IMG/VR virus record: IMGVR_UViG_3300045120_000521
Span: 1-43,310 of that record
DNA from: a virus
Direction: 5' to 3' (one strand)
DNA length: 43,310 bases
Shown: piece after piece, positions 866-16,776 of the stretch
Layout: every line of letters starts with the position of its first letter
Numbering within the stretch: position 1 is the first letter of the stretch
Translations under genes and position numbers: made by a program
Notes under the pieces: generated by a model
What the model was told of the DNA's origin: nothing
The model's input: only the letters and a program-made list of their open reading frames with translations
Database searches by the model: none

Positions 866-2475
866 CAGGCCAGCCTCTTCTCGAGCGCTTCGATCCTGAG
901 CTGGGCTTCCTGCAGCGCCTTCGTCAACATGGCGACCACCGGCAGCAGGTCGACGGACTGCAGATGCTCGCCGTCCTTCTCGCCGGCCGCCATGGTCGGC
1001 AGCGTCTCGGCCAGCTCGTGCGCGATGAAGCCGTAGCGTTCCAGGCCGTCCGCCTTGATGATCTCGTAGTCGCGATGCTTGTAGCTGATCGGCTTGAACG
1101 CCTTGATCCGCTCCCACGTCGAGTCGAGCGGCTTGACGTCCTGCTTGATGCGGTAGTCGCAGACGACGACGCCGGTGATCCGAAACAGGGTCTCGTCGAT
1201 GGTGATGCACGGCAAGCCGTCATACGAGAAATTGGCGTGGCTCGTCGTGTAGGAGGTGCTGCTCGCCTTGAGCTTGCAGCGCAGGCCCTGTCCGGCCAGC
1301 ACTTCACCGCTATTGGCGGCGTTGGCCGTAATGGCGCCGGTGGCGGTCAGGGCACCGCCGATGACCATGTTGCCGTTGAGGTCGATGGTGCTCTGGTTGG
1401 CGCTCGAGCCGCTGCCGTTGGGCCGGAAATAGATAGTGCCGTTGGTGGTCGTCCCCAGGATGGTGACGTTGTCGTTGCCCTTGAAGGTGTTGGCGACGCA
1501 GTCGAGGGTGACGTACAGGCTGTGGTAGATATAGGCGTTGCCGGTGTCGCGGATGACCTGGAAGACGGTGTCGCCGGCGGCGCCGGCGTTGTTGTAGCGG
1601 ATCAGGTTGAAGTTGCTGCCGATGTAGCCAGTGCCGCTCTCCGCCACGGTGTCGCCGAGCTGCATGATCCAGCGGTATTCGGAACCGTTCCTGGCGATCA
1701 GCTGGTTGGAGTGAGCGCCGGCGGTCTTGGTGAGGAAAAGCTGGCCGTAGCCGCTGGCGGCATTCGAGATGGTGAGCGTGTCGACGCTGACGTCGGCGAA
1801 ATCGAGCGCGCCGGCGACGGTGAGGCCGCCATTGGCGTAGAGCATGCCGGTCGCGGCCAGCGTCCCGGCGAAGGTGGCACCGGTGCTGTTCAGGGTGAGT
1901 TGGCCGCCAGCGACCCCGACACCGCCCGGCTGCAGGGAGATGGTGCCGGCCGTCGTCGGAGCGAGGCCGACGGTGGTTCCGGTGCCGACAAAGTAGCCGG
2001 CGGCGGAGGCGATGTTGCCGTTGGCCGTCAGCCCGCCGGTATCGTTCAGCGACATGATGTCGGTGCCGCTGAGGTCGTACTTGTCGTTCCAGACGAAGCG
2101 GCTCGGCGTCGTCCTGAAACCGATGCCGATGTCGGCCGGCACCGAATAGATCTTGTCGTGGATGGCGATCTCGTCCAGCGCCGCGCCGGTCAGGCGGACG
2201 TCGACGCGAGCATCGCCGGCAACGAAGCTGAGTATGCTGGTGCCTTCCTGGGCGCGGACGACGGTCAGGTTGACGCCGCTGCGCGCGGTGCAGCGCATGA
2301 CCTCGCGCTCGCCGGTCGACTTGGTGACGGTGACCGGGTGCCAGTCGCCGAGGCCGAGCGTCGGAAACTTGCCCTCGTCGCCGGCGGTGATCGACACGGT
2401 GAGATCGGTCGTCGGGTTGTTGCCGAGCGGCGACGACAGCAGCGACGTCGCGTTGTTGGTCATTTTGAGCGGCAT
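865..2475 (-). CDS. Tail fibre with C-terminal S74-type chaperone domain
   Basis: A 536-aa fibre. Residues 1-105 form an N-terminal domain (TNNATSLLSSPLG... RCTARSGVNLTVVRAQEGT) that is also at the start of the collar-type fibre at 3882-6188, so it is probably the virion anchor. The middle (about 150-430) is glycine/threonine-rich, as expected for a trimeric beta fibre. Residues 439-536 look like an intramolecular chaperone/auto-processing (peptidase S74) domain: CDYRIKQDV, then FKPISYKHRD, GFIAHELAETLP, and a final coiled coil (LTKALQEAQLRIEALEKRLA). In S74 domains the start of this motif is normally Ser-Asp-x-Arg-x-Lys with Ser and Lys catalytic; here Ser is Cys439 while Lys444 is kept. AGAGG lies 9 nt before ATG 2475, and a 16-nt leader element shared with the capsid gene lies further upstream. 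Confidence 0.85.
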   Translation of the reverse strand: MPLKMTNNATSLLSSPLGNNPTTDLTVSITAGDEGKFPTLGLGDWHPVTVTKSTGEREVMRCTARSGVNLTVVRAQEGTSILSFVAGDARVDVRLTGAALDEIAIHDKIYSVPADIGIGFRTTPSRFVWNDKYDLSGTDIMSLNDTGGLTANGNIASAAGYFVGTGTTVGLAPTTAGTISLQPGGVGVAGGQLTLNSTGATFAGTLAATGMLYANGGLTVAGALDFADVSVDTLTISNAASGYGQLFLTKTAGAHSNQLIARNGSEYRWIMQLGDTVAESGTGYIGSNFNLIRYNNAGAAGDTVFQVIRDTGNAYIYHSLYVTLDCVANTFKGNDNVTILGTTTNGTIYFRPNGSGSSANQSTIDLNGNMVIGGALTATGAITANAANSGEVLAGQGLRCKLKASSTSYTTSHANFSYDGLPCITIDETLFRITGVVVCDYRIKQDVKPLDSTWERIKAFKPISYKHRDYEIIKADGLERYGFIAHELAETLPTMAAGEKDGEHLQSVDLLPVVAMLTKALQEAQLRIEALEKRLA

Positions 2476-2495
2476 GACGGCGGACCTCTAAGGGT

Positions 2496-2511
2496 TCAGC
2501 ACGTCCTGCGC
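2496..2511 (-). promoter_or_regulatory. Leader element, S74 fibre gene copy
   Basis: Same 16-nt minus-strand sequence as 13105-13120, ending 20 nt before the fibre ATG and upstream of AGAGG. Flanking bases differ, so the identity is not simply a long duplication. Here the ribosome-binding site lacks a second GGA, so any CsrA-type control would be weaker than at the capsid gene. Confidence 0.45.
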
Positions 2512-2571
2512 CGGAGAGCCTGCACTATAGCCTGTGGGTCGACGTGTCTCCAGATTGCCGGATTGCGCCCA

Positions 2572-2898
2572 TCACACGGCGGGCGGCGGCGCAAAAGCAT
2601 TGGCGCGGGCGTCCCAGATCGAGGTCAGGGTGAACTCGATGTCGCTGTCTGTCGGCGCTTCCGGCCCGCCGCTCTCCAGCGCCGCGGCGATTGCCGCGTT
2701 GGTGGCGACGTGCTGCGCCAGCAGGATGGCGTTGTCGCTGCCCTGGAAGATGCGGTTGGAGTACGCCACGCGGTTGACGTGGTTGGGCTGGGTGTCCGCC
2801 TCGGCGGCGACCTGCTGCGCCACCTTGAGCGCGATGTAGCTGACGCGCGTGTAGAACGCGGGGTCACTGGCTGCGGTTACGACGGCAATGCTACTCAC
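2572..2898 (-). CDS. Small conserved virion-module protein, unknown function
   Basis: A 108-aa protein starting at GTG 2898, chosen because GGAGG sits 8 nt upstream. It is mostly helical and alanine-rich, with YTRVSYIALKVAQQVAAEA near the N-terminus and DSDIEFTLTSIWDA near the C-terminus. Proteins with this DSDIEFT.NS..DA ending recur in the tail modules of GC-rich phages, but I know no function. The start overlaps the previous stop by 8 nt, so it is probably co-translated with the fibre accessory genes. A minor structural or assembly protein is the most that can be inferred. Confidence 0.75.
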   Translation of the reverse strand: MSSIAVVTAASDPAFYTRVSYIALKVAQQVAAEADTQPNHVNRVAYSNRIFQGSDNAILLAQHVATNAAIAAALESGGPEAPTDSDIEFTLTSIWDARANAFAPPPAV

Positions 2899-3190
2899 TT
2901 GAGACGCCTCCCTTCAGAGCTTCCAGGATGGACATGTTGCGGAACAGGCGATCGCCGGGCGCCTCTTTCATGTTCTGGTTGATGGCGGGCGGAACGGGAA
3001 TCGTCTCCACCGTCCATGCACCATTGCTGAACACCGCGTGCTGCTTCTTGGGGTTGGGCACAAACGGAGGTACTAAGTCCGTGGCATTCGCAGGGATCAG
3101 AAAATGACCGGGCTCCAGCGGATCTTCGTCCGCCTCTGACGACGTGTTGAGGTACACGCCGGTGTCAGCGCTGTAGTGATAAACAATCAT
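2891..3190 (-). CDS. Probable tail-fibre assembly/accessory protein
   Basis: A 99-aa protein. The N-terminal half (YHYSADTGVYLNTSSEADEDP, then LEPGHFLIPANATDLVPP) resembles the start of phage tail-fibre assembly chaperones, where a Y-x-S/P-x-TG-E/V-Y stretch and a 'DP...PG.YLIPANATxxxPP' segment are typical. A short acidic and hydrophobic C-terminus (NMSILEALKGGVSSE) follows. It sits between the two fibre genes and overlaps both neighbours. The family call rests on motif recall and position only. Confidence 0.6.
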   Translation of the reverse strand: MIVYHYSADTGVYLNTSSEADEDPLEPGHFLIPANATDLVPPFVPNPKKQHAVFSNGAWTVETIPVPPAINQNMKEAPGDRLFRNMSILEALKGGVSSE

Positions 3191-3897: not shown

Positions 3898-6188
3898 GCG
3901 AGTAGCGCGATGTTGCGTGGACGGGTCTCGGTTCCAGTGCTGTTGTCGGTGTTGCCAGACACCAAATGGGCGTGGCTCGCAGTCATGCCGCTCGTTCCAC
4001 CGCTAACCAAGTGATAGTGATTAGCGCTTATTCCACCGGTCGTGCCGGAAACGGCGACGGTGTGCGTGTGCGCAGCGCCCGATGCACCGGAGGCTGAAGC
4101 TGCTTGCGTCGCTGCCGAACCGGCGGCATTGCTGGCTGGAGTACAATTCGGGCTGCCGGTAGCGTTGTGCGTGTGGTTGGCTGATGCGTTACCGGTGGAC
4201 GATGAGGCATCCGAAAATGTGTGCGTGTGACTGGCGCTCTCAGTACCGGTGTTAATGCTGACATTGTGCGCATGATCGGCGCTCTGAAGACCGCTGGTGA
4301 TGGAAACAGGGTGCAAATGCGGGGCGAGATCAGCAGTCTGTGCCGAACCGAAAGCACGACCGACATCGATGCCGCGACTGTCATCCCAGTAGCGCGGGAA
4401 CTCGCCACGCAGATCGGGCAGCTGGAACGTGGTCGACCCGTCGCCGGGACCGAACACGACACCGATCGCAGCAAACAGCGCCGCGTAGGTCGTGCGCGAG
4501 ATCGTTGCGCCGTTCGCCTTCAGCCAGCCAGTCGGCGCAGTCGACATGGCGAACGCTACGATCGCTCCTGCCGGCGTACCACCACTCGTAGCATCGACGT
4601 ATTGCTTGGTCGCCACCTGCAGCGCGGTCGTCGGATTCGCCGCTACCGAAAGCTGGCCACCCAGGAACAGATTGCCGCTGTCGTCGAGTGTCGAGTTGCT
4701 GTCCTGAATGAGCGCGCCGGTGGTGCCGTCGAAGCGGGCAAGACCATTGTCGTGTGCCGACGCCGGACCGCTGACGTTGCCGCTTGGCTTGGCATCAACA
4801 TATTGCTTGGTGGCCGCCTGCAAAGCGGTGGACGGGTCACCCGGCAGCGTGATCGCAAGGCCGGCGGTGAGGCCGCTCGACGTGACCGACCAGCGCGTAG
4901 CGCCGCCTATCGTGATGTAGACGCCAGCCGCATCGCTCCACAGGCCGTTGACCGAAGCCCCGAACCGGAATGACGGCGCTCCAGCCGCGCCCAGCGGCAT
5001 GGTCAGCACGCCGGTCATGGTGTCACCGGCCTTGGCGACCTTGGCGTCGATCGCCGTCTGCTGCGCCGTGCTGACCGGTTTATTGACGTCTGACGTGTTG
5101 TCGACGTTGGCGAGCCCGACATCGGTCTTCGTCAGCGTGACCGCACCGGTCCGCCCGGCGACGCTCTGCACCGGTGCCGCCGCGCTGGCGCGGACGTTGG
5201 TGTAGTAGAGGTTGGTCGAGCCTTCCGGAACCGCGTCGGTGGAGCCTGGCGACGGCGAAATCTCGGTGTAGGACGAGCCGCCCCAGCGGTAGACCTTGTT
5301 GGTGTCGAGGGCGACATAGATGATGCCGGTCGTGCCGGTCGCCGGAAACGCCGCCAGGTTGGCGAACTCCAGCACGTCATCCACATATGCGGGCAGCTGG
5401 GCAGCGGGCACCTTGGCGCTGCCGTCGAGCGATGCGTAGCCGTTGACCGCGCCCTTGTTCGCCTTGTCTTCCTTCAGAGTACCCTGGGCGTCGACGTACT
5501 GCTTGGTGGCCGCCTCCAGCGGGTTGCTCGGGTCCGCCGGCAGGGACACCGGCACGGTCGTCACCACCGCACTGCCACCGACCAACAACTTCTGCACGCC
5601 GCCGACCGCTACCGAGATCGATGACGAACCTCCGTAAAGGCCGGTGCCGGCGGTGCCGAAATACATGCTGGTGGCAGCCGCGCTGCCGCTGGTCGGCAGC
5701 GACAACGGCACGGCGAACGTCCCCAACGCCGGGGCGAGCACCATCACGTCGGCGCCATTGACGGCAGCCTTCACCAGCATTGGCGTGCCGTAGAACCCGG
5801 TGCCGGCAGCGCCGAAGTTCAGGCTGGTGGCGGCCGCCGAGCCAGCTGGCAGCACCAGCGGCCCGGTCATGGTGTCGCCGGCGTCCTGTACGAAGGCCTG
5901 CAGCGCCACCATCGTCAGCCGGTGATCGACCGTGGCGCCGGCGCCGAAAGCCTGCACGGTGGTGCCCTCCTGGCCGCGCGTTACGGTCAGCGTCGCTCCC
6001 GACCGCGCCGTGCAGCGCACGATCTCCATCTTGCTGCCTTCGACCAACGTCACCGGGAACCAGTCGCCGGCCGCCGGCGTCGGGAACAGCGCCGCCTCGG
6101 ACGCCTGCACGGTCAGCGTCGTGGCGACGTTGGTGATCGCCGACGCGAGCGTCGACGTCGCGTTGTTGGTGAAGACGGCAATGCCCAT
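3882..6188 (-). CDS. Tail fibre with tail-collar domain and His-rich receptor tip
   Basis: A 768-aa fibre starting at ATG 6188 (TGATG overlap with the previous gene); a longer in-frame start at 6299 would begin inside that gene in another frame and is rejected. Residues 1-100 repeat the anchor domain of the S74 fibre (FTNNATSTLASAITNVATTL, RCTARSGATLTVTRGQEGT). The shaft holds paired 'AATSLNFGAAGTGFYG'-like repeats and three copies of an ATKQYVDA motif (about 224, 458 and 525), a common linker in phage fibres. Residues ~535-640 match a phage tail collar domain (GAIVAFAMSTAPTGWLKANG; FGPGDGSTTFQLPDLRGEF). The tip (~640-750) carries many HxH pairs (HTHTF, NHTHNA, HTHTV, NHYH, SHAH), the metal-binding pattern of T4 gp12-like fibre tips, and ends ETRPRNIALLACIKY. 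Likely receptor binding. Confidence 0.9.
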   Translation of the reverse strand: MGIAVFTNNATSTLASAITNVATTLTVQASEAALFPTPAAGDWFPVTLVEGSKMEIVRCTARSGATLTVTRGQEGTTVQAFGAGATVDHRLTMVALQAFVQDAGDTMTGPLVLPAGSAAATSLNFGAAGTGFYGTPMLVKAAVNGADVMVLAPALGTFAVPLSLPTSGSAAATSMYFGTAGTGLYGGSSSISVAVGGVQKLLVGGSAVVTTVPVSLPADPSNPLEAATKQYVDAQGTLKEDKANKGAVNGYASLDGSAKVPAAQLPAYVDDVLEFANLAAFPATGTTGIIYVALDTNKVYRWGGSSYTEISPSPGSTDAVPEGSTNLYYTNVRASAAAPVQSVAGRTGAVTLTKTDVGLANVDNTSDVNKPVSTAQQTAIDAKVAKAGDTMTGVLTMPLGAAGAPSFRFGASVNGLWSDAAGVYITIGGATRWSVTSSGLTAGLAITLPGDPSTALQAATKQYVDAKPSGNVSGPASAHDNGLARFDGTTGALIQDSNSTLDDSGNLFLGGQLSVAANPTTALQVATKQYVDATSGGTPAGAIVAFAMSTAPTGWLKANGATISRTTYAALFAAIGVVFGPGDGSTTFQLPDLRGEFPRYWDDSRGIDVGRAFGSAQTADLAPHLHPVSITSGLQSADHAHNVSINTGTESASHTHTFSDASSSTGNASANHTHNATGSPNCTPASNAAGSAATQAASASGASGAAHTHTVAVSGTTGGISANHYHLVSGGTSGMTASHAHLVSGNTDNSTGTETRPRNIALLACIKY

Positions 6189-7065: not shown

Positions 7066-7481
7066 CAGACCACCGTTTCGGTGAGCTTGCCGATCTTGAT
7101 GGTTGCCTCGTCGCTCGGCGCGAACACCTTGGTGCTCACCAGCGAGCCGTAGACCAGCATGTTGCCGGCGGTCAGCGCGTCCCACACCGCGGCGTGGGTG
7201 ACGGTGACATCGACGGTACCGTCATTGGCGCCGTAATTCATCTGCTTGCTGTTCTTGGTGGTCTTGGCGGCGACCGGATCGAAGCCGGTAGCGATCGCCG
7301 CGCCCTGCGCCGGGTCCTTGCGGGTATAGCTCGGCCAGGCGGCGGTGGTGACCTCGTTGAGGCCAGTCGGTCCGGGATCCGCCGTATGCAGAGATACGTA
7401 GACGCGCGCCGGGACGGTGAAGGCGCCGCCGCGCAAGGCGGCCTCGAGCACCATGTTGCCGAGATAGGTCGAGGCAGGCAT
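7065..7481 (-). CDS. Tail-fibre/virion protein (fibre-base family)
   Basis: A 138-aa protein that follows the pattern of a small phage protein family often annotated as tail fibre or virion structural: YLGNMVLEAALRGGAFTVP, then ARVYVSLHTADPGPTGLNEV and ending in a beta-rich segment (VTVTHAAVWDALTAGNMLVY). The 'LYVSLHTADP..TG..EV....Y.R' core is typical. It sits between the adaptor protein and the 198-aa protein with overlaps on both sides. I infer a small tail-side structural subunit. Confidence 0.7.
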   Translation of the reverse strand: MPASTYLGNMVLEAALRGGAFTVPARVYVSLHTADPGPTGLNEVTTAAWPSYTRKDPAQGAAIATGFDPVAAKTTKNSKQMNYGANDGTVDVTVTHAAVWDALTAGNMLVYGSLVSTKVFAPSDEATIKIGKLTETVV

Positions 7482-8116
7482 CAGAACCAGTCTCCCTTGG
7501 TGCGCAGGCGTGCACCCTGCTGGCCCTTGGTGGCTTCGGTTCGCGCCGTGGCGATCTGCGAGGTGAAACGGTCGTCCATTACGCCGCCGAGCTGCGGGTT
7601 GGCCCAGTCCGACGGCGTCGTCAGCACGATCGCGGCGGCGCCGCGACCGATCGCCGTGCGGTGCTGGTCGTAGAGCCAGTCGGGCAGCGTCACCGCCTCG
7701 AGCGACGGCTTCAGCACCAGCTTCAGCCGCAGCAGGCCGGCCTGCCGGGGGTAGACGCTGACGCTGTTGGGGTTGAGCTGGAAGACATAGCTGGCCTGGC
7801 CGCTCTCAGTGTCGTCGGTCCAGTCCGACCGGTTGTCGTTCATCCACGCCATGGTCTTCGGCTCGAGGTTGAACGGGCCGTAGCCGTCGGCGTCGAGCAT
7901 CTGTGCCTGTTCGATGTCGACGATCGCCGCGTCGGCGATGGTGCAGATGCCGGTGCATTCCGGCGTCACCAGCGTGATCTCGTCGTGCTGCCGCCACAGG
8001 CGGGCGTTCTGGCATAGCCGTCGCGCCGATTCGCGGATCGCCTTGAGCGCCAGCGGCTCGTTGCAATTGGGAGCGAAGGTCAGGACATCTGGGAGGAAGT
8101 CATCGATGTCGCGCAT
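7481..8116 (-). CDS. Head-tail adaptor protein (podovirus type), copy 1
   Basis: A 211-aa protein. ATG 8116 is preferred (TGATG with the upstream stop); GTG 8119 would add one residue. The N-terminus (DIDDFLPDVLTFAPNCNEP then LALKAIRESARRLCQNARLWRQ) matches the helical start of small phage adaptor proteins that bind under the portal ('P.....I..AA..FC..T..W.'). The middle is beta-rich and the C-terminus helical (AIGRGAAAIVLTTPSDWANP). It lies in the usual place, between capsid-region and fibre genes, and beside a second adaptor-like gene. Confidence 0.7.
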   Translation of the reverse strand: MRDIDDFLPDVLTFAPNCNEPLALKAIRESARRLCQNARLWRQHDEITLVTPECTGICTIADAAIVDIEQAQMLDADGYGPFNLEPKTMAWMNDNRSDWTDDTESGQASYVFQLNPNSVSVYPRQAGLLRLKLVLKPSLEAVTLPDWLYDQHRTAIGRGAAAIVLTTPSDWANPQLGGVMDDRFTSQIATARTEATKGQQGARLRTKGDWF

Positions 8117-8820
8117 CACGGCCTCGCATTCGGGGAGTGGGCCTTCTCGACCTGGATCTTGAGACCGATCGCCGTGGCGAACTGCTGATAGTGTACGGCG
8201 GCGCGGCCTGCCTGGCCGTCAAGGTCGTCCTTCAACTGGCAGCGATACAGAACGTAGTCCAGCAGCGGCACCGAGTATGGCTCAGGCAGGCCGACGTCGA
8301 TGGCGTAGCTGTCGATGGCGGCAGGGCTGTCGGTGGGGTCGATGACGATCGGCGGCGGCAGCGTCGCCAGCTCGGCCTCGACCATGCCGGTGCCGTCATT
8401 GCCGGGGTAGACGTAGTATTGCAACGGCACCAGCTCGTCGTAGCAGTAATTGCGCACCTCCTTGCGGAACTGCACGCGGCCGCGGTTGTGCCAGTCGGGC
8501 TCGGTCGCATCGAGGACGGCGCGATCGGTGCGCTTGATCATGCGGCCGCCCTTACGCGGCTCGGCGGCGTCGAGGATGTTGCGGTTGAGGCCGAGCAGCG
8601 ACAGCGGCTTGGCCAGGGCGCCGTTCACCGGCACGTTTTGCAACGTGCCGACCTGCAGGTTGAGCACCCGGGTGGTGGAAGACGCCGAAGGTTTGCCGAG
8701 ACAGGTGGCGCGAACGCCCTCGTTCAGCCAGTCGCACATCTCCGCGAGCGGCCAGCGGACGTGATCCACGTCATTGAGCAGGATCGCAGCGCGGGAAAGG
8801 ATCTCGCTTCCGGTCGGCAT
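8116..8820 (-). CDS. Head-tail adaptor-like protein, copy 2
   Basis: A 234-aa protein with an N-terminal helix pair of the type seen in podovirus adaptor proteins: SEILSRAAILLNDVDHVRWP followed by LAEMCDWLNEGVRATCLGKP. The middle part carries WHNRGRVQFRKEVRNYCYDE and PLQYYVYPG, the last third PEPYSVPLLDYVLYRCQLKD then DLDGQAGRAAVHYQQF, a pattern found in the short 'RAA.LL.D....RW...EL..W.N.....' phage proteins. With its neighbour it probably builds the ring between portal and tail. It overlaps the next gene by TGATG. Confidence 0.65.
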   Translation of the reverse strand: MPTGSEILSRAAILLNDVDHVRWPLAEMCDWLNEGVRATCLGKPSASSTTRVLNLQVGTLQNVPVNGALAKPLSLLGLNRNILDAAEPRKGGRMIKRTDRAVLDATEPDWHNRGRVQFRKEVRNYCYDELVPLQYYVYPGNDGTGMVEAELATLPPPIVIDPTDSPAAIDSYAIDVGLPEPYSVPLLDYVLYRCQLKDDLDGQAGRAAVHYQQFATAIGLKIQVEKAHSPNARP

Positions 8821-8824
8821 CCAC

Positions 8825-9493
8825 TCATCCGATCAGGGCCTTGGCCTGGCCGATCCAGTCGTCGCGCAGGATGCGGCCGCTCAGACCGAGCTTGTCGTCG
8901 ACAGCCTGCGCCTCCGCGTCAGTCCACGCGGCGATCTGGCGGCAGTCGGTGATGCCGACGCTCTCCAGCTTGGCGGCCGTGGTGGCGCCGACGCCGCCGA
9001 TCTCGGTAACCGGGATCGGATCGGGGCGATCAGTGGTCGCCGAGGCCTGCGTAGCGCCCGCCGGATCGGTGAAGGTGAAATCGAGCGAATCGGTCTTGGC
9101 CATATCGCCGTTCATCACCAGCACCGGAAGCGTGACGGCGCCCCAGCCGAGCGACGGCTTGACGACGGTCGTCACCTCCTCGCTGGAGACGTAGACGATC
9201 GGCTCCTGATTTTCGCCGAAGACGATCACCGCGTCGCGGGCGAAGCCGGTGCCGAGGCAACGCAGCGTCAGGTCCGGGTCGCCGAGCACGGCGGTCGTTG
9301 GCTCGATCGAGGTCAGCACCAGCGGCTGCGGATCCTTGTCGACCACCCGGTAGTGGACGACGCTAAGCAACACGTTGAGATGCTTGGGGTCCCACACTTC
9401 GACGACATAGCGACCATGTTCGTCCAGCTCGAACGAATAGGTGTGGTCGAACACCATGACCTCGACCGGTCCGAGTTTGCTTTGAACGAGCAT
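8825..9493 (-). CDS. Virion protein with Ig-like (IPT/TIG) and C-terminal HhH domains
   Basis: A 222-aa protein with two recognisable parts. Residues ~60-150 look like an IPT/TIG immunoglobulin-like fold (PLVLTSIEPTTAVLGDPDLT, CLGTGFARDAVIVFG). Residues ~163-222 form a helix-hairpin-helix module: IGGVGATTAAKLESVGITDC, RQIAAWTDAEAQAVDDKLGL, SGRILRDDWIGQAKALIG. This second module is nearly the one appended to several alphaproteobacterial proteins (for example at the ends of some NuoE and ribosomal L21 proteins). HhH units usually bind DNA backbones without sequence preference. Its place among head-completion genes suggests a virion surface or internal DNA-contact role; this is inference. Confidence 0.7.
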   Translation of the reverse strand: MLVQSKLGPVEVMVFDHTYSFELDEHGRYVVEVWDPKHLNVLLSVVHYRVVDKDPQPLVLTSIEPTTAVLGDPDLTLRCLGTGFARDAVIVFGENQEPIVYVSSEEVTTVVKPSLGWGAVTLPVLVMNGDMAKTDSLDFTFTDPAGATQASATTDRPDPIPVTEIGGVGATTAAKLESVGITDCRQIAAWTDAEAQAVDDKLGLSGRILRDDWIGQAKALIG

Positions 9494-9647: not shown

Positions 9648-9929
9648 TCAATCCTTGAAGAATTTCAGCCTGCTGGTGTCGTGGATGCTGGTGTCCATCG
9701 CTCGCTTGCGCGTCGCGCCGCCGGGCGGGATCTTCTGGATATACGCGCGACCGCCAAACTGGCGATTCGCCTCTGCAGACATCTGCCGTCGCATCGGGGT
9801 GTTGCCGGGCGGCAGCCAGCCGGGATCGACCAATTCTCGAGGCGGCGCCTGCGGATGCTCTAGCTCCTTGTTGGCGTATGGCCGGGGAGCCCGTGCAGGC
9901 CTGGTGCGGGGGGCGGAATAGACGGCCAT
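9648..9929 (-). CDS. Basic proline-rich protein with C-terminal LKFF tag (1 of 3)
   Basis: A 93-aa protein, rich in Pro, Arg and Ala and predicted disordered by composition (MAVYSAPRTRPARAPRPYAN). It ends HDTSRLKFFKD. The same ending, HD[T/Y][S/K][R/G]LKFF plus a few charged residues, closes the next two upstream proteins, although the rest of the three sequences differs. The start overlaps the stop of the 316-aa gene (TGATG). Location between capsid and adaptor genes points to a virion-internal or assembly role; the shared tail may be a docking signal. Confidence 0.7.
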   Translation of the reverse strand: MAVYSAPRTRPARAPRPYANKELEHPQAPPRELVDPGWLPPGNTPMRRQMSAEANRQFGGRAYIQKIPPGGATRKRAMDTSIHDTSRLKFFKD

Positions 9930-10879
9930 CAGCCTTTACCCGGGTGGAAGAACTTGAGACGGCTGTAGTCGTGCGGTCCGTTCGACGTCGAAAACGTGCT
10001 CGCCTTGGCGTTGACCTTACGGTCACCCTTCTGCGCCGCCACGCGCGTGGTCTTGACGACATCGGGCGCGATCCGCTTGCCGACATAGAATTTGGCCGGC
10101 TGACGCACCGGCGGCGCCGCTGCCATCGGCTCCGGCGAGCCGAGCCGCGGTCCGGTACGCGCCATCTTCGAGCTGGGCGGCGTCACCTCACGCCCGACCA
10201 CCTTGGCATAGCCGGTCACCGGCTGCACCCGCGTCGCGGTCGCTAGCGGTTGTGTGTTCGAGGCGACCTCCACCTGCGTCGGTCGGGTAACGGGCATAGG
10301 TGACTTGACGCTAGCAGTGCGCACCGCCGTACCGCGCGGCGACGGCGAGCCGGTCGCCAGCTCCATGCGCTTACGGGTGTCGGCGATATCGGCGGCGGTA
10401 CGCGCCGGATTGGCGGCGGCGGCGCGCGCCCGTGCCGCGGCGAGCCGTGCCGTGTCGTTGTCGCGGGCGGCGGCGACCGCGGAGCTGACGTTGCCGGCGA
10501 GCTGCGCCTGGTTGGGGGCTGGCGGCAGCGGCTTGCCCTTCTGCTGTTCGGCGATGCGCTGGATCTCGACGGTCTTCGACGGCGCCGGCCGCGGCACGTC
10601 GGGCGTGTAGTCAGGCCGCGGTTTCGGCAGCGGCACGTTGGCTGCTGTGGTGTCGGGCCGTGGCTTTGGACGCGGTACATCAGCGGCGGCGGTCTGGGTC
10701 GATGCGCCCTTCGGCTTGGTCTTCTGCAGGGCAGCCAACCCGGTCGGCGCCAGCGCAGTGCTGTAGGATTTGCCGCCGAAGGTGAAGGTCTTGGCCTTGG
10801 GGTTCTTGCGCGCCGCAGCGAACGCCTTGTCGAAGGCGCGGCCGCCCTTGGAGCGCGGTGGTCCTACCTTCAGGCCCAT
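9929..10879 (-). CDS. Basic disordered protein with C-terminal LKFF tag (2 of 3)
   Basis: A 316-aa protein of strongly biased composition (Ala, Pro, Lys, Arg, Thr), probably unfolded. It has tandem repeats of a VPxPKPRPD motif around residues 70-100 and an Ala/Arg-rich helical stretch near 140-170 (ARDNDTARLAAARARAAAAN). The C-terminus is PHDYSRLKFFHPGKG, matching the tails of its two neighbours. AAGGAT precedes ATG 10879. Long basic disordered proteins in this position in other phages may be internal virion proteins; no specific homologue is recognised. Confidence 0.7.
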   Translation of the reverse strand: MGLKVGPPRSKGGRAFDKAFAAARKNPKAKTFTFGGKSYSTALAPTGLAALQKTKPKGASTQTAAADVPRPKPRPDTTAANVPLPKPRPDYTPDVPRPAPSKTVEIQRIAEQQKGKPLPPAPNQAQLAGNVSSAVAAARDNDTARLAAARARAAAANPARTAADIADTRKRMELATGSPSPRGTAVRTASVKSPMPVTRPTQVEVASNTQPLATATRVQPVTGYAKVVGREVTPPSSKMARTGPRLGSPEPMAAAPPVRQPAKFYVGKRIAPDVVKTTRVAAQKGDRKVNAKASTFSTSNGPHDYSRLKFFHPGKG

Positions 10880-10883
10880 GGCG

Positions 10884-11363
10884 TCAATCCTTGCCGCGGA
10901 AGAACTTCAGCCCCTTGGTGTCGTGCGTGGCGCCGTGCGCGGCGAGGTTGCCCCTGCCGAAGACCGCCGACGACTTGCCGATCTTGGGGTTGCGGCCGTA
11001 GCTGGCCGAGGTGGTGTAGCCGGACGAGCGGTTGCTCTCGGGACCGGCGAAGGACGTTGCCGCCTGCCTGGTGACGACTGCCTGCGGCTGCGACTTGACG
11101 ATCGTCTTGGTGGTCTTGGTGGTCGGATTGCGGACCCGCGGCGGCTGCTTGTTCGGCTTGGTCGGCGCGGCGGCGGCCGGCTTGTCGAGAGCCCGCATCT
11201 GGTCGCGCAGGACGTTCGGATCGGGTTTGACCGGATCGCCGGTCAGGGTGTGGGTCCGCAGCCACTCGTACCCCTGGCCGATGGTCGACGGCTCGTCGCC
11301 GCCCCCGAACAGCCGCTTGAGGGACGAACCCCAGCTCAAGGAGTCGTCGGGTTTCTTGGCCAT
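10884..11363 (-). CDS. Basic protein with C-terminal LKFF tag (3 of 3)
   Basis: A 159-aa protein. The N-terminus (MAKKPDDSLSWGSSLKRLFG) may form a short amphipathic helix; the middle is Lys/Pro/Thr-rich (KPNKQPPRVRNPTTKTTKT); the C-terminus is HDTKGLKFFRGKD, the tail shared with the two genes that follow. GAGGAG sits before ATG 11363. It is the first gene after the long hairpin at 11387-11434, so its expression could be set lower than that of the capsid genes by read-through. Function unknown; virion-internal role inferred. Confidence 0.7.
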   Translation of the reverse strand: MAKKPDDSLSWGSSLKRLFGGGDEPSTIGQGYEWLRTHTLTGDPVKPDPNVLRDQMRALDKPAAAAPTKPNKQPPRVRNPTTKTTKTIVKSQPQAVVTRQAATSFAGPESNRSSGYTTSASYGRNPKIGKSSAVFGRGNLAAHGATHDTKGLKFFRGKD

Positions 11364-11386: not shown

Positions 11387-11434
11387 CCGGCGGCCCGCGC
11401 AGCCTGAAGAGGACGAGGCGACGCGGGCCGCCGG
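11387..11434 (-). terminator. Strong hairpin between capsid genes and LKFF genes (attenuator?)
   Basis: Perfect 13-bp inverted repeat (11387-11399 and 11422-11434) of pure G/C with a 22-nt loop. On the minus strand it is followed by GATCGTTTG, not a real U-tract, so it is a weak intrinsic terminator at best. It lies in the only sizeable gap after the capsid/decoration genes, which suits partial termination or mRNA 3'-end protection of the highly expressed capsid messages. Confidence 0.55.
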
Positions 11435-11474: not shown

Positions 11475-11963
11475 TCAAGCAGCAGCTGCAAGCCATACGC
11501 CGAGCGTGATGTTGCCCACCGGTGTGGTGGTCGCGCCGGCGGTAGTGATGCCGATACCGCGTTCGTACGGGGCCGGCGCCACCTTGAAGCCGGTTGCCGC
11601 GCTCATGCGCGTGGCAGCGGCCGCCGAAAGCGCGGTAGCCGCGGCAAAAAACTCGGTACCGGTGGTGCGGGCGGCAAGATCGGCAGCGCTGTACGAACCC
11701 GGCGGTGCGGGGGGCGTACGGCTGTCGCTGATGACGCCGACGCTGGCAGTGACCGAGGCGCCGAGCGCGTCGTTCTCGAGAACCATGTCGACGACCCGGC
11801 AGTTGGGCGGAATGACACCGATCTCGAGGCAGCTGCCGATCGCGGTGTTGAGCGGCACCGACATCGTGAAACGGTTGTAGATGACGTCGCCGGCCGAGCC
11901 GGGGTAGCTGACGGGCTGGTTGCCCTTGACGGCAGGACCCGCGACAGGCGTAGCAATTGCCAT
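11475..11963 (-). CDS. Probable capsid decoration/accessory head protein
   Basis: A 162-aa alanine-rich protein right after the major capsid gene, with AAGGAG 8-9 nt before its ATG. VIYNRFTMSVPLNTAIGSCL then EIGVIPPNCRVVDMVLENDA fits a family of short beta-rich proteins that follow N4-gp56-type capsid genes in GC-rich phages ('...F.V..A.....V.ELGVLPANC.PVD.....D'). The last part is small-residue rich and ends LGVWLAAAA. I infer a head decoration or stabilising protein from position and pattern. Confidence 0.65.
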   Translation of the reverse strand: MAIATPVAGPAVKGNQPVSYPGSAGDVIYNRFTMSVPLNTAIGSCLEIGVIPPNCRVVDMVLENDALGASVTASVGVISDSRTPPAPPGSYSAADLAARTTGTEFFAAATALSAAAATRMSAATGFKVAPAPYERGIGITTAGATTTPVGNITLGVWLAAAA

Positions 11964-11975
11964 AGAAATCTCTCC

Positions 11976-13085
11976 TTACGCGTTCGGGTCCTTGGCCGCG
12001 GTGTCGATCGACAGCACACCGAAGTCCTTGCCGTTGAAGCGCGACTTCTTCACGCCCATGATGACACCGGCGGCGACCTTTGGCTCGTTGCCGTGGTCCG
12101 ACATCTCCTCGGTCCAGGTGAAGCGCAGCCCGCCGGCCGAGCCGTAGGCACAGACGCCGGCCTGACGGCCCATGAACAGCGCGCGTGCCGCCTTGACCGA
12201 GCCGGCCGGGTAACCGACGCCGTAATTGTCGAAGCGGATGACGTTCTCGTGGCTGTGCAGGACGACGTTGTCGATCATGCCCAGCCCGCCCTTGAAGATC
12301 GGGTTGTTACGGCCCTCGGCCTGCGCCGCGGCCTTCTGGATGTCGAGCCAGCCGCCGGAATCCGTCACCCGGAGATCGTACTCCTGAAACGGCGACATGA
12401 TCAGCACGTAATGCTGCTCGCCCTCGATGTTGATGGCGATCATATTGGCCGTTGTCGGGTCGAGCGCCCGCATCATCGTCGCCTTGACGGCGGCACGCTC
12501 GACGACGGCGCGGGTCATCACGTCGCCGACCACCAGCGTGGCAGCGGTGCCGGTGGCGGTGGGGTAGATGATGTGACCGGCATCCGGCGCGTCGATCGGG
12601 TTGCCGGCGAAACCCGCCCAGCTGATGTCCTCGATGTAGTCCTGGTTGATGCCGCGCGAGCCGGAGAGGTAGACGAAATTCATCTGGTCGATGTACTGCG
12701 ACCAGTAGTCGGACAGGCGGTCGCGGGCAATTGACCGGATATTATGGACGGTGCGCTTGCGGCTCATCTTGCCGCCGGCGGAGACGCCGTGCCGCATCTG
12801 GTCGATGTAGACCTGGTCGGTGAAGAACCGCAGGTTCTCTTCCTTACCCTCGAGGCGGTTGTCACCGGTCGTCGGCTTGTTCCTCAGCTGGACCGAGAGG
12901 TCGAAGCTGATCGTGTCGCCGGCGTCGGATTCGAGATCCGTCAGCCTTTGAATGACCGAGTTGTCGCTCTCCGACACGAATTTACGGTCGAAGTAGCCCT
13001 TGGTGAGGATGTCTAGGAAAAGCTGGCCTGACCAGCGCTTGACGGCTTTCGGATCACCGAAAGGAATTGTCGTCGGGCCTGCCAT
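11976..13085 (-). CDS. Major capsid protein, N4-gp56 family
   Basis: A 369-aa protein with hallmarks of the N4 gp56-type major capsid family: DAGDTISFDLSVQLRNKPTT, then GDNRLEGKEENLRFFTDQVY, IDQMRHGVSAGGKMSRKRTV, DRLSDYWSQYIDQMNFVYLS and, near the C-terminus, VAAGVIMGVKKSRFNGKDFG. Length is in the normal range for this HK97-fold family, with no obvious extra N-terminal scaffold domain; a separate scaffold gene lies just upstream. The ATG follows AGGAGG by 7 nt. The 140-nt leader holds a 16-nt element also found before the S74 fibre gene and a 33-bp tandem repeat. Confidence 0.93.
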   Translation of the reverse strand: MAGPTTIPFGDPKAVKRWSGQLFLDILTKGYFDRKFVSESDNSVIQRLTDLESDAGDTISFDLSVQLRNKPTTGDNRLEGKEENLRFFTDQVYIDQMRHGVSAGGKMSRKRTVHNIRSIARDRLSDYWSQYIDQMNFVYLSGSRGINQDYIEDISWAGFAGNPIDAPDAGHIIYPTATGTAATLVVGDVMTRAVVERAAVKATMMRALDPTTANMIAINIEGEQHYVLIMSPFQEYDLRVTDSGGWLDIQKAAAQAEGRNNPIFKGGLGMIDNVVLHSHENVIRFDNYGVGYPAGSVKAARALFMGRQAGVCAYGSAGGLRFTWTEEMSDHGNEPKVAAGVIMGVKKSRFNGKDFGVLSIDTAAKDPNA

Positions 13086-14427: not shown

Positions 14428-16776
14428 CTAGGGGCCCGGTGGCGGTGCGCCGATACCGAGCTGTTGATCCGCACCGGGCTGCGGACCGCCGGGCTGCATG
14501 CCGGGCGGTGGTTGCTGTTGGGCAGCGGCCTGCTGCTGTTGCGCGGCGGCGGCTGCCGCCTGCATCTGGGCCAGCGCCGTCGCATCCTTGTCGGTCTGCG
14601 AGACGAAGCCGGACTCCGCCAAGATGTAATCCGCGACCTGCGCGGCGGCCGGCACCGATATCGCCACCTGCGCGGCGTCCAGCGCCTTCTGTTGCGCATC
14701 GACGTTGTGGCCGGGGATCTTGGCCATGGTCTCCTGCGCCAAGGCTGTAGCTTGATCCGCCTTGGCCATCGCTGCCTTGGCGTCGCCGATCGCCTTCTCC
14801 AGCTGCGCCCGCAGCAGCGCCTGCTGCATTGCCTGCTGCTGCGCCATCTGCTGCATGCGCTGCTGCTCCTCCGGCGTCGGCGTCTCGCTGTTCGGGTCGA
14901 ACTGGCCGGTGACCGAGCGGATGCGCTTGACGATCTCCTCGCGGTTGGGGAGGTCCATGTTCTCGACGGCGAGGTCGAGCAGCAGGATGGCGACTTCCGG
15001 CGGCAGCCGGCTCATCGCCTCCATCAGCTCGTCGGCGGCGGCCTGCCTAATGGTGGCGTGCCACGCCGCCTCGCTGATGACGAAGTCGGCCTTGTTGCGG
15101 GTGATGTCGTTGTCGGGCAGGCCGTCGTTGACGGTGACGTAGTCCGACTTGCCGCGCTGGTTGGTGATGCGGAACTGCTTCTCCTGATCCATGAACTGCT
15201 CGACGTTGGCGAGCAGTTTCTCGCCGTGCACCTGGCAGGCGAACAGGAGGTTGTCGAACAGCTTGGCGGTGGCCAGCGAGCCCTGGTCCTGCCGGCGCTG
15301 GATGGCGACGCCACTGGTCGCGTTGGTCTTGCGGCCGAGCAGCTCGTCGGTGACGCCACTGGCCTGCTGGATCATGTTGATGTCGCGGCTCATCAGCTCG
15401 AGGTGCCATTGAGCTAAGTCACGGTCCGCGTTGATGTCGATTTCCTTGCCCGGCATCTTGCGAATGATCGCATCCGGCCGGCTGACCTCCTCCTGGAACT
15501 CCTCGAAGCTCATGTCGTCGGGCAGCGCGTCGTAGTCCATGATGATCTTGGAGGTCGACAGGATGTGCAGCGCCTTCGACGCACGCTTGTTGACGTCGAC
15601 CTGGATGTCCTTGAGCCGGCGGATGACGCCGTAGGGCGCGCCGTCGCGGCCGCGGCGGTAGGCGAAGATCGGGGTCAGCGGAAAGCGGTTGTGCCGGTAG
15701 GGGCTCTCCGACCACCACAGCATGCCCGCCTCGGTGAACAGCCCGATGTGGACGCGCATGATGGTCTTCTCGACCAGCTGGGCGTCGCCGTTCTTGAGGT
15801 CGAGCTTGTGGCCGCCGGAGAAGGCGTCGAACATCTCGCCGTCGAAGGTGCCGCCCTTCATCTTGCCGGCGGTCACCGGCCGCTTGTACCAGCCCTCGAT
15901 GATGCGGACGCGCTGGCGCTGGAAGCCTTCGATGGCGCGCGACCCGGTGGTCGAGCCGTAGGCCTGCTCGAGCGCCATCTCCTGGCTGTCCATCGGCGCG
16001 TCGCCGTAGAGGTCGCGCTGGATGAAGTCGTCGCCGCGCTCGGCCGACGAGCGGAGCACGTCCTGACGCTTGGGGAACATGGCGATGGCGACGTCGAGGT
16101 CGACCCACTTCGAGCGGAAGATGTAGCGCCCGTCATTGACGTCGAGCTCGGTCGCCGCGGTGTCGTGCAGCACGTTGCGCCAGCTCTCGTAGCGGCTGTA
16201 GAGCGGCTCGTCCTCGCTGTCGCCGTCCAAACCATCTTCGATCCAGCCGATGCCGACCTTGACGGCGTCCTCGAAGGCCCGGGAGATGTGGAATGGTTCG
16301 CGGTTGACGTCCGAGAGGTACTTGAGCAGCGCCGTCTTCTTCTCGGCCTGCTTGGCCTGCTCCTTCTTGCGCGGCAGCACCTTGAAGTCGGTGCGGGCGC
16401 GTTTCTCGGAGCCTGAGATCCAGTCGATCGAGGTCGAGATGACGTTATAAACGAGAGGAACTTGCCCGCGATCGCGGAGCTGCTGGGCGTCGTCGGGATT
16501 CCACTGGATGTTGTCGTAGAAATCCTCGTCCTCGGCCATCTCGGCGCGGTTGTCGCCCTGTCTATCAAGTTCATCCGCGTAGCAGGCGAGCATCTGGTGA
16601 TGCAGGTCCTGCATGTCGGGGCTGTCGAGGTTGGTGGTCTTTGACGAGCCGCGGTCCGGCGTCTTCATCGAGGTGGTCGGCGGCAGGTGCGCCGGCATCG
16701 GGTCGCCGTAGGTCGACTTGTCCTTGACGCGGCGGACCGAACCGTCGTCGGCGCCGAGATCGAACATGTCAGCCAT
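14428..16776 (-). CDS. Portal protein (P22-type)
   Basis: A 782-aa portal, the length of P22-type portals (gp1). The N-terminal ~200 residues contain ADELDRQGDNRAEMAEDEDF, YDNIQWNPDD, GQVPLVYNVISTSIDWISGS and EKRARTDFKVLPRKK, all typical of this family, followed by FEDAVKVGIGWIE. Middle landmarks are PLTPIFAYRRGRDGAPYGVI, RRLKDIQVDVNKRASKALHI and the ASGVTDELLGRKTNATSGVA hinge, then AIQRRQDQG. The C-terminus (~620-782) is a long Gln/Ala-rich helical barrel and a Pro/Gly tail. It forms the dodecameric DNA channel at one capsid vertex. The ATG overlaps the preceding stop (TAATG). Confidence 0.9.
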   Translation of the reverse strand: MADMFDLGADDGSVRRVKDKSTYGDPMPAHLPPTTSMKTPDRGSSKTTNLDSPDMQDLHHQMLACYADELDRQGDNRAEMAEDEDFYDNIQWNPDDAQQLRDRGQVPLVYNVISTSIDWISGSEKRARTDFKVLPRKKEQAKQAEKKTALLKYLSDVNREPFHISRAFEDAVKVGIGWIEDGLDGDSEDEPLYSRYESWRNVLHDTAATELDVNDGRYIFRSKWVDLDVAIAMFPKRQDVLRSSAERGDDFIQRDLYGDAPMDSQEMALEQAYGSTTGSRAIEGFQRQRVRIIEGWYKRPVTAGKMKGGTFDGEMFDAFSGGHKLDLKNGDAQLVEKTIMRVHIGLFTEAGMLWWSESPYRHNRFPLTPIFAYRRGRDGAPYGVIRRLKDIQVDVNKRASKALHILSTSKIIMDYDALPDDMSFEEFQEEVSRPDAIIRKMPGKEIDINADRDLAQWHLELMSRDINMIQQASGVTDELLGRKTNATSGVAIQRRQDQGSLATAKLFDNLLFACQVHGEKLLANVEQFMDQEKQFRITNQRGKSDYVTVNDGLPDNDITRNKADFVISEAAWHATIRQAAADELMEAMSRLPPEVAILLLDLAVENMDLPNREEIVKRIRSVTGQFDPNSETPTPEEQQRMQQMAQQQAMQQALLRAQLEKAIGDAKAAMAKADQATALAQETMAKIPGHNVDAQQKALDAAQVAISVPAAAQVADYILAESGFVSQTDKDATALAQMQAAAAAAQQQQAAAQQQPPPGMQPGGPQPGADQQLGIGAPPPGP

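Follow-up and report, generated by a model that had tools for sequence, protein, structure and literature searches.

A conserved C-terminal tail, probably a docking peptide, on three unlike basic proteins of an uncultured podophage

The DNA analysed here (the window) is a virus record of 43,310 bases, IMG/VR IMGVR_UViG_3300045120_000521, positions 1 to 43,310. Judged by its sequence, this uncultured phage is a podovirus (short-tailed phage) of the PBC5/Bcep22/GP4 kind; the capsid, the portal, the adaptor and the protein encoded at 7481-8119 match PBC5, Bcep22-like and Ralstonia GP4 podophages. The genes of the head module follow each other on the minus strand in the order portal, scaffold-like (phrog_8246), CsrA-like, major capsid protein, decoration-like, P1, P2, P3, a gene with a YxF motif, SU10-type adaptor and a phrog_437 protein. 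The portal (14428..16776, P22_portal) is a homologue of the GP4 portal in 8jov, and the major capsid protein (PF13252, phrog_334) is encoded at 11976..13085. The next gene, at 11475..11963 (phrog_8455), encodes a decoration-like protein, for which gene position suggests a cement role. On the other side of P1-P3 lie the YxF head-module gene (8825..9493), the adaptor (8116..8820; SU10_adaptor, phrog_399; homologue of 8jov chain 2) and a homologue of GP4 gp81 (7481..8119; phrog_437; 8jov chain G). The YxF product is an acidic protein (-16) of 222 aa with an N-terminal beta domain, a TIG/IPT domain and a C-terminal helical domain. Homologues of the portal, the adaptor, gp81 and phrog_240 are found in the same module as in GP4, but no GP4 chain (8jov, 8jou) matches P1, P2 or P3.

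The interval between the phrog_8455 gene and the YxF and adaptor genes is occupied by a cassette of small genes, all on the minus strand. P1 (10884..11363) encodes 159 aa and ends in HDTKGLKFFRGKD, its tail-coding stretch with the stop being 10884..10925. P2 (9929..10879) encodes 316 aa and ends in HDYSRLKFFHPGKG (tail and stop 9929..9973), and P3 (9648..9929) encodes 93 aa and ends in HDTSRLKFFKD (tail and stop 9648..9683). P4 (9498..9647) lies directly after P3 and continues the operon; it had been passed over in the sequence-only reading of this DNA. Its product of 49 aa is very basic (+12), carries no tail and is conserved in the clade described below as GKTFRTDTGGTVK...G(K)RKG, also written KTFRSDTGGTVK...GKRKG. 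P1 to P4 are coupled, their starts and stops overlapping or lying a few bases apart, and GAGGAG, which resembles a ribosome-binding site, precedes P1. Between the decoration-like gene and P1 there is a GC-rich hairpin (11387..11434, minus strand) that has been kept, with compensatory base changes, in each of the five members of the clade and is probably an attenuator or processing site. No T run follows it in the window, while the PBC5 hairpin at about the same place has one. Rfam gave no match between positions 6000 and 17000 of the window.

The C-terminal ends of P1, P2 and P3 are alike. In a three-way ungapped comparison of the last 20 residues, the three proteins agree in six columns; shuffling these tails 20,000 times produced no more than four such columns, and never five. 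LKFF near a stop is found in no window ORF besides these three, and it is followed by two to five charged or polar residues before the end. As an empirical background we scored the last 20 residues of 7,980 ORF pairs, at most four genes apart, from about 150 loci, which is a rough null since the ORF calls were mechanical. The tail pairs of the window scored 42, 40 and 31, and an independent pair in contig L009 scored 39; pairs above the window scores come from locus L035 and from others that, judged by eye, mostly look like paralogues or overlaps. The shared tail is far above chance.

Concerning the rest of the proteins, the sequence-only reading had described three adjacent, basic and largely disordered products, unlike apart from their tails and placed between head and adaptor genes. 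ORF coordinates, lengths, tails and location are as it claimed, and its account of the bodies is borne out. HMM profiles of P1, P2 and P3 gave no cross-match against each other's ORFs, so the bodies are unrelated. Their net charges are +14, +36 and +9, and in a charge-hydropathy plot they fall on the disordered side, with capsid, adaptor and portal on the folded side. AlphaFold2 modelled P1, together with four relatives, at a mean pLDDT of 52.5 and a pTM of 0.12. Scans of P1-P3 with Pfam and PHROG revealed nothing, enzyme domains included, and no sequence relation was found between the three proteins and PDB entries.

We ran profiles of P1-P4 against the approximately 150 fetched loci (IMG/VR and genome loci). 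Among these, the cassette is restricted to a single small clade of IMG/VR contigs: the P1, P3 and P4 profiles match only the window's virus (with its near-identical contig L007), L008, L009, L012 and L034, and the P4 profile also matches L086, a partial locus. The capsids of clade members are about 90% identical. P1 has orthologues in all four relatives, and its tail is kept in five of five members with the pattern H[DN]xx[GA]LKxF, the endings being HDFSGLKGFFK in L008 and L012, HNTKGLKWFRGGDD in L009 and HDFSALKGFFK in L034. Mean pairwise identity of P1 (ten pairs) is 70% over the nine core tail columns versus 34% in the body, as expected when selection maintains a short linear motif on a disordered carrier that otherwise changes fast. 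The P3 tail is kept in all three members in which P3 was found, namely the window's virus, L009 (LKWF; ending KGLKWFNEKD) and L034 (LNWF; ending HATDRLNWFKD); P3 was not found in L008 and L012. In a 65.5-kb relative, LK(F/W-like)F stands closely before a stop at the two cassette genes only. The P2 tail is found in the window's virus only. The P2 orthologues of the four other members end differently, in RKTLGIWR, SVFKKRW, KKFVGVRR and KKRTLGIRRGGG, so either the window's lineage gained the tail or other lineages lost it. At its other end P2 carries a module, RSKGGxAFDKxFA...KTFxFGGKSYsT, that is conserved in all five members. We regard the shared tail as real, and within this clade it looks to be under selection.

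The named relatives PBC5, Atu_ph08, PEp14, POI1126 and BcepMigl have no cassette, the decoration gene being followed directly by the YxF gene. The cassette is accessory, since most relatives are without it and only one of the five clade members has the tail on P2. Searches with tblastn for P1-P3 in annotated phages gave insignificant matches only, a profile search of IMG/VR with P1 yielded confirmed matches in the window's virus and L009 only, and none of four bacterial-genome loci from a GTDB genome scan with the capsid has the cassette. In the literature, nothing was found on shared packaging motifs. LKFF endings in phages at large had been suggested as a search target by the sequence-only reading; the DNA pattern for H(D/N)-x3-LKFF picked out 40 stretches of IMG/VR, with a convincing tail only in the window's own virus, and the rest look like chance. 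Among the sequences searched, the tail does not extend beyond one small clade and is no general phage signal. The earlier idea of a docking tail is strengthened by conservation on drifting bodies in P1 and P3, where loss of the tail among relatives would have spoken against it, and by its modular appearance in P2, but it has to be narrowed to this clade.

The tail probably serves as a docking peptide, holding small proteins in place in the virion. Our preferred reading of the whole cassette goes further and is tentative, plausible rather than probable: P1 to P4 would be minor virion proteins made from a late operon, all of them small, basic and intrinsically disordered, and HDxxxLKFF would be the short linear peptide by which P1, P2 and P3 dock to one common surface. 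This surface may lie at the portal vertex, on the portal barrel, the adaptor or the tail channel. The basic bodies would run alongside the DNA and be carried out with it when the phage infects. Virion presence, docking, vertex location and ejection are all suggested by analogy. Docking at the portal vertex is proposed because of the precedent of T7 gp7.3. Six copies of gp7.3 sit in the tail channel, attached to the nozzle; only the C-terminal residues 84-98 of 99 are modelled, as an anchored loop, and the mostly positively charged N-terminus is disordered or unresolved around the DNA (PMC11784390). Both gp7.3 and gp6.7 are ejected and leave the virion at infection (PMC11784390). As read from their genes, P1-P3 resemble these small podophage proteins, which in T7 belong to the portal-tail region, in their basic disordered bodies and in gene position within a head-tail module. 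Sequence homology is absent, however, with no PDB, Pfam or PHROG match for P1-P3, and gp7.3's own tail, GGKKSLSVARSSGGGINI, does not resemble LKFF. Small disordered podophage proteins are a known kind; a shared tail on them is unusual.

The main rival is a capsid-targeting tag, an idea already put forward in the sequence-only reading. The tail would then bind the scaffold or the inner face of the capsid, and P1-P3 would be co-packaged and become internal proteins, much like the T4 proteins that carry the capsid targeting sequence. Such a tag would look like what is seen here, a short terminal sequence common to dissimilar basic proteins encoded beside head genes, and in T4 a targeting sequence of about 10 residues on several different internal proteins directs them into the head and packages almost any protein (PMC7697877). 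In the T4 internal proteins IPI-IPIII, however, this sequence is N-terminal and is cleaved by the maturation protease (PMC7697877). The window tail sits at the opposite terminus, and no prohead protease is among the window ORFs scanned, which are part of all window ORFs. On balance we consider a prohead tag unlikely. Encapsulin cargo-loading peptides are short C-terminal peptides on cargo that dock to an HK97-fold shell. The window tail is likewise a short C-terminal peptide, but there is no encapsulin shell with a cargo enzyme here: the capsid is a phage major head protein, and P1-P3 have no enzyme domain.

A second alternative places the docking partner next door. The tail might bind the acidic YxF/TIG protein, which would itself be a structural protein or a chaperone, and the cassette and the TIG domain would together make up a single accessory unit, placed on or inside the virion. 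The charges of this candidate partner and of P1-P3 are opposite, AlphaFold2 and Foldseek support the TIG fold, and each of the five cassette-bearing phages, like L086, has a TIG domain in its YxF protein, which no other fetched locus does. All these phages belong to one clade, however, so the co-occurrence may be common ancestry, and we hold this pairing to be quite unlikely.

The tails could also have arisen by local duplication, 3' ends having been copied between adjacent genes with little function. At the DNA level the tails of P1 and P3 are very similar (CACGACACCA...GCTGAA.TTCTTC...AAGGATTGA), and the restriction of the P2 tail to the window's virus fits such copying. Retention of the P1 and P3 tails across diverged members while the bodies change implies selection, which argues against this origin and leaves it improbable. 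Classical degrons are hydrophobic-ended. A role of the tail as a turnover signal (C-terminal degron), or as some other non-structural signal carried by small regulators, is very improbable: the C-terminal region is hydrophobic and exposed, and host proteases degrade T7 gp6.7 and gp7.3 (PMC11784390), but the charged or polar residues after the motif are unlike classical degrons and the genes sit in a structural operon.

To return to the docking peptide, virion proteins that are small and disordered are difficult to detect by homology or cryo-EM, and a shared docking tail, if true, would offer a sequence handle to find such proteins and their docking site. It could possibly be used to load other proteins into podophage particles, and the assembly and ejection of minor proteins by short-tailed phages would become testable. 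In its most general form, the tail might be a modular address peptide at the C-terminus, one that can move from gene to gene and by which several disordered basic proteins, unrelated to each other, are loaded onto a single site of a podophage virion; together with the cassettes described below, it would stand for a recurrent, undescribed way of loading accessory ejected proteins. We judge this generalisation rather unlikely.

Motif-sharing cassettes of small proteins were seen in two other phages. In L018, a capsid relative, five adjacent small proteins (1311-3110, plus strand) upstream of the portal gene have in common the motif IAAG.QPNRTPGPKFLASRGIP (IAAGxQPNRTPGPKFLASRGIP), and four of the five also have related endings, e.g. 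NLKGFLDSRRRG and GPNKLKRFLDQNRLA; they may simply be paralogues. In L035, an unrelated phage, four adjacent small basic proteins (7692-9343, plus strand) end in variants of SASKRADGCA(V/I)(R/K)GKT(R/K)G(K/R)(I/M)V. With regard to a common function, these two cassettes are leads suggested by their sequences rather than proof. When annotated phages were searched by tblastn with the short N-terminal module of P2 and the L035 tail, nothing was found, and the low-complexity filter may have masked these queries. The first of the four L035 proteins (7692-8453) also carries an N-terminal module like that of P2, and the P2 profile weakly matches L035 and L036 through this module. In the form AFxxAxxxGxKTFxFGGKxYtT it is common to P2 (9932-10879, minus strand), to this L035 protein and to a protein at 7992-8510 of L036, the phages being unrelated; in L036 the module protein lies between portal-like and scaffold-like genes.
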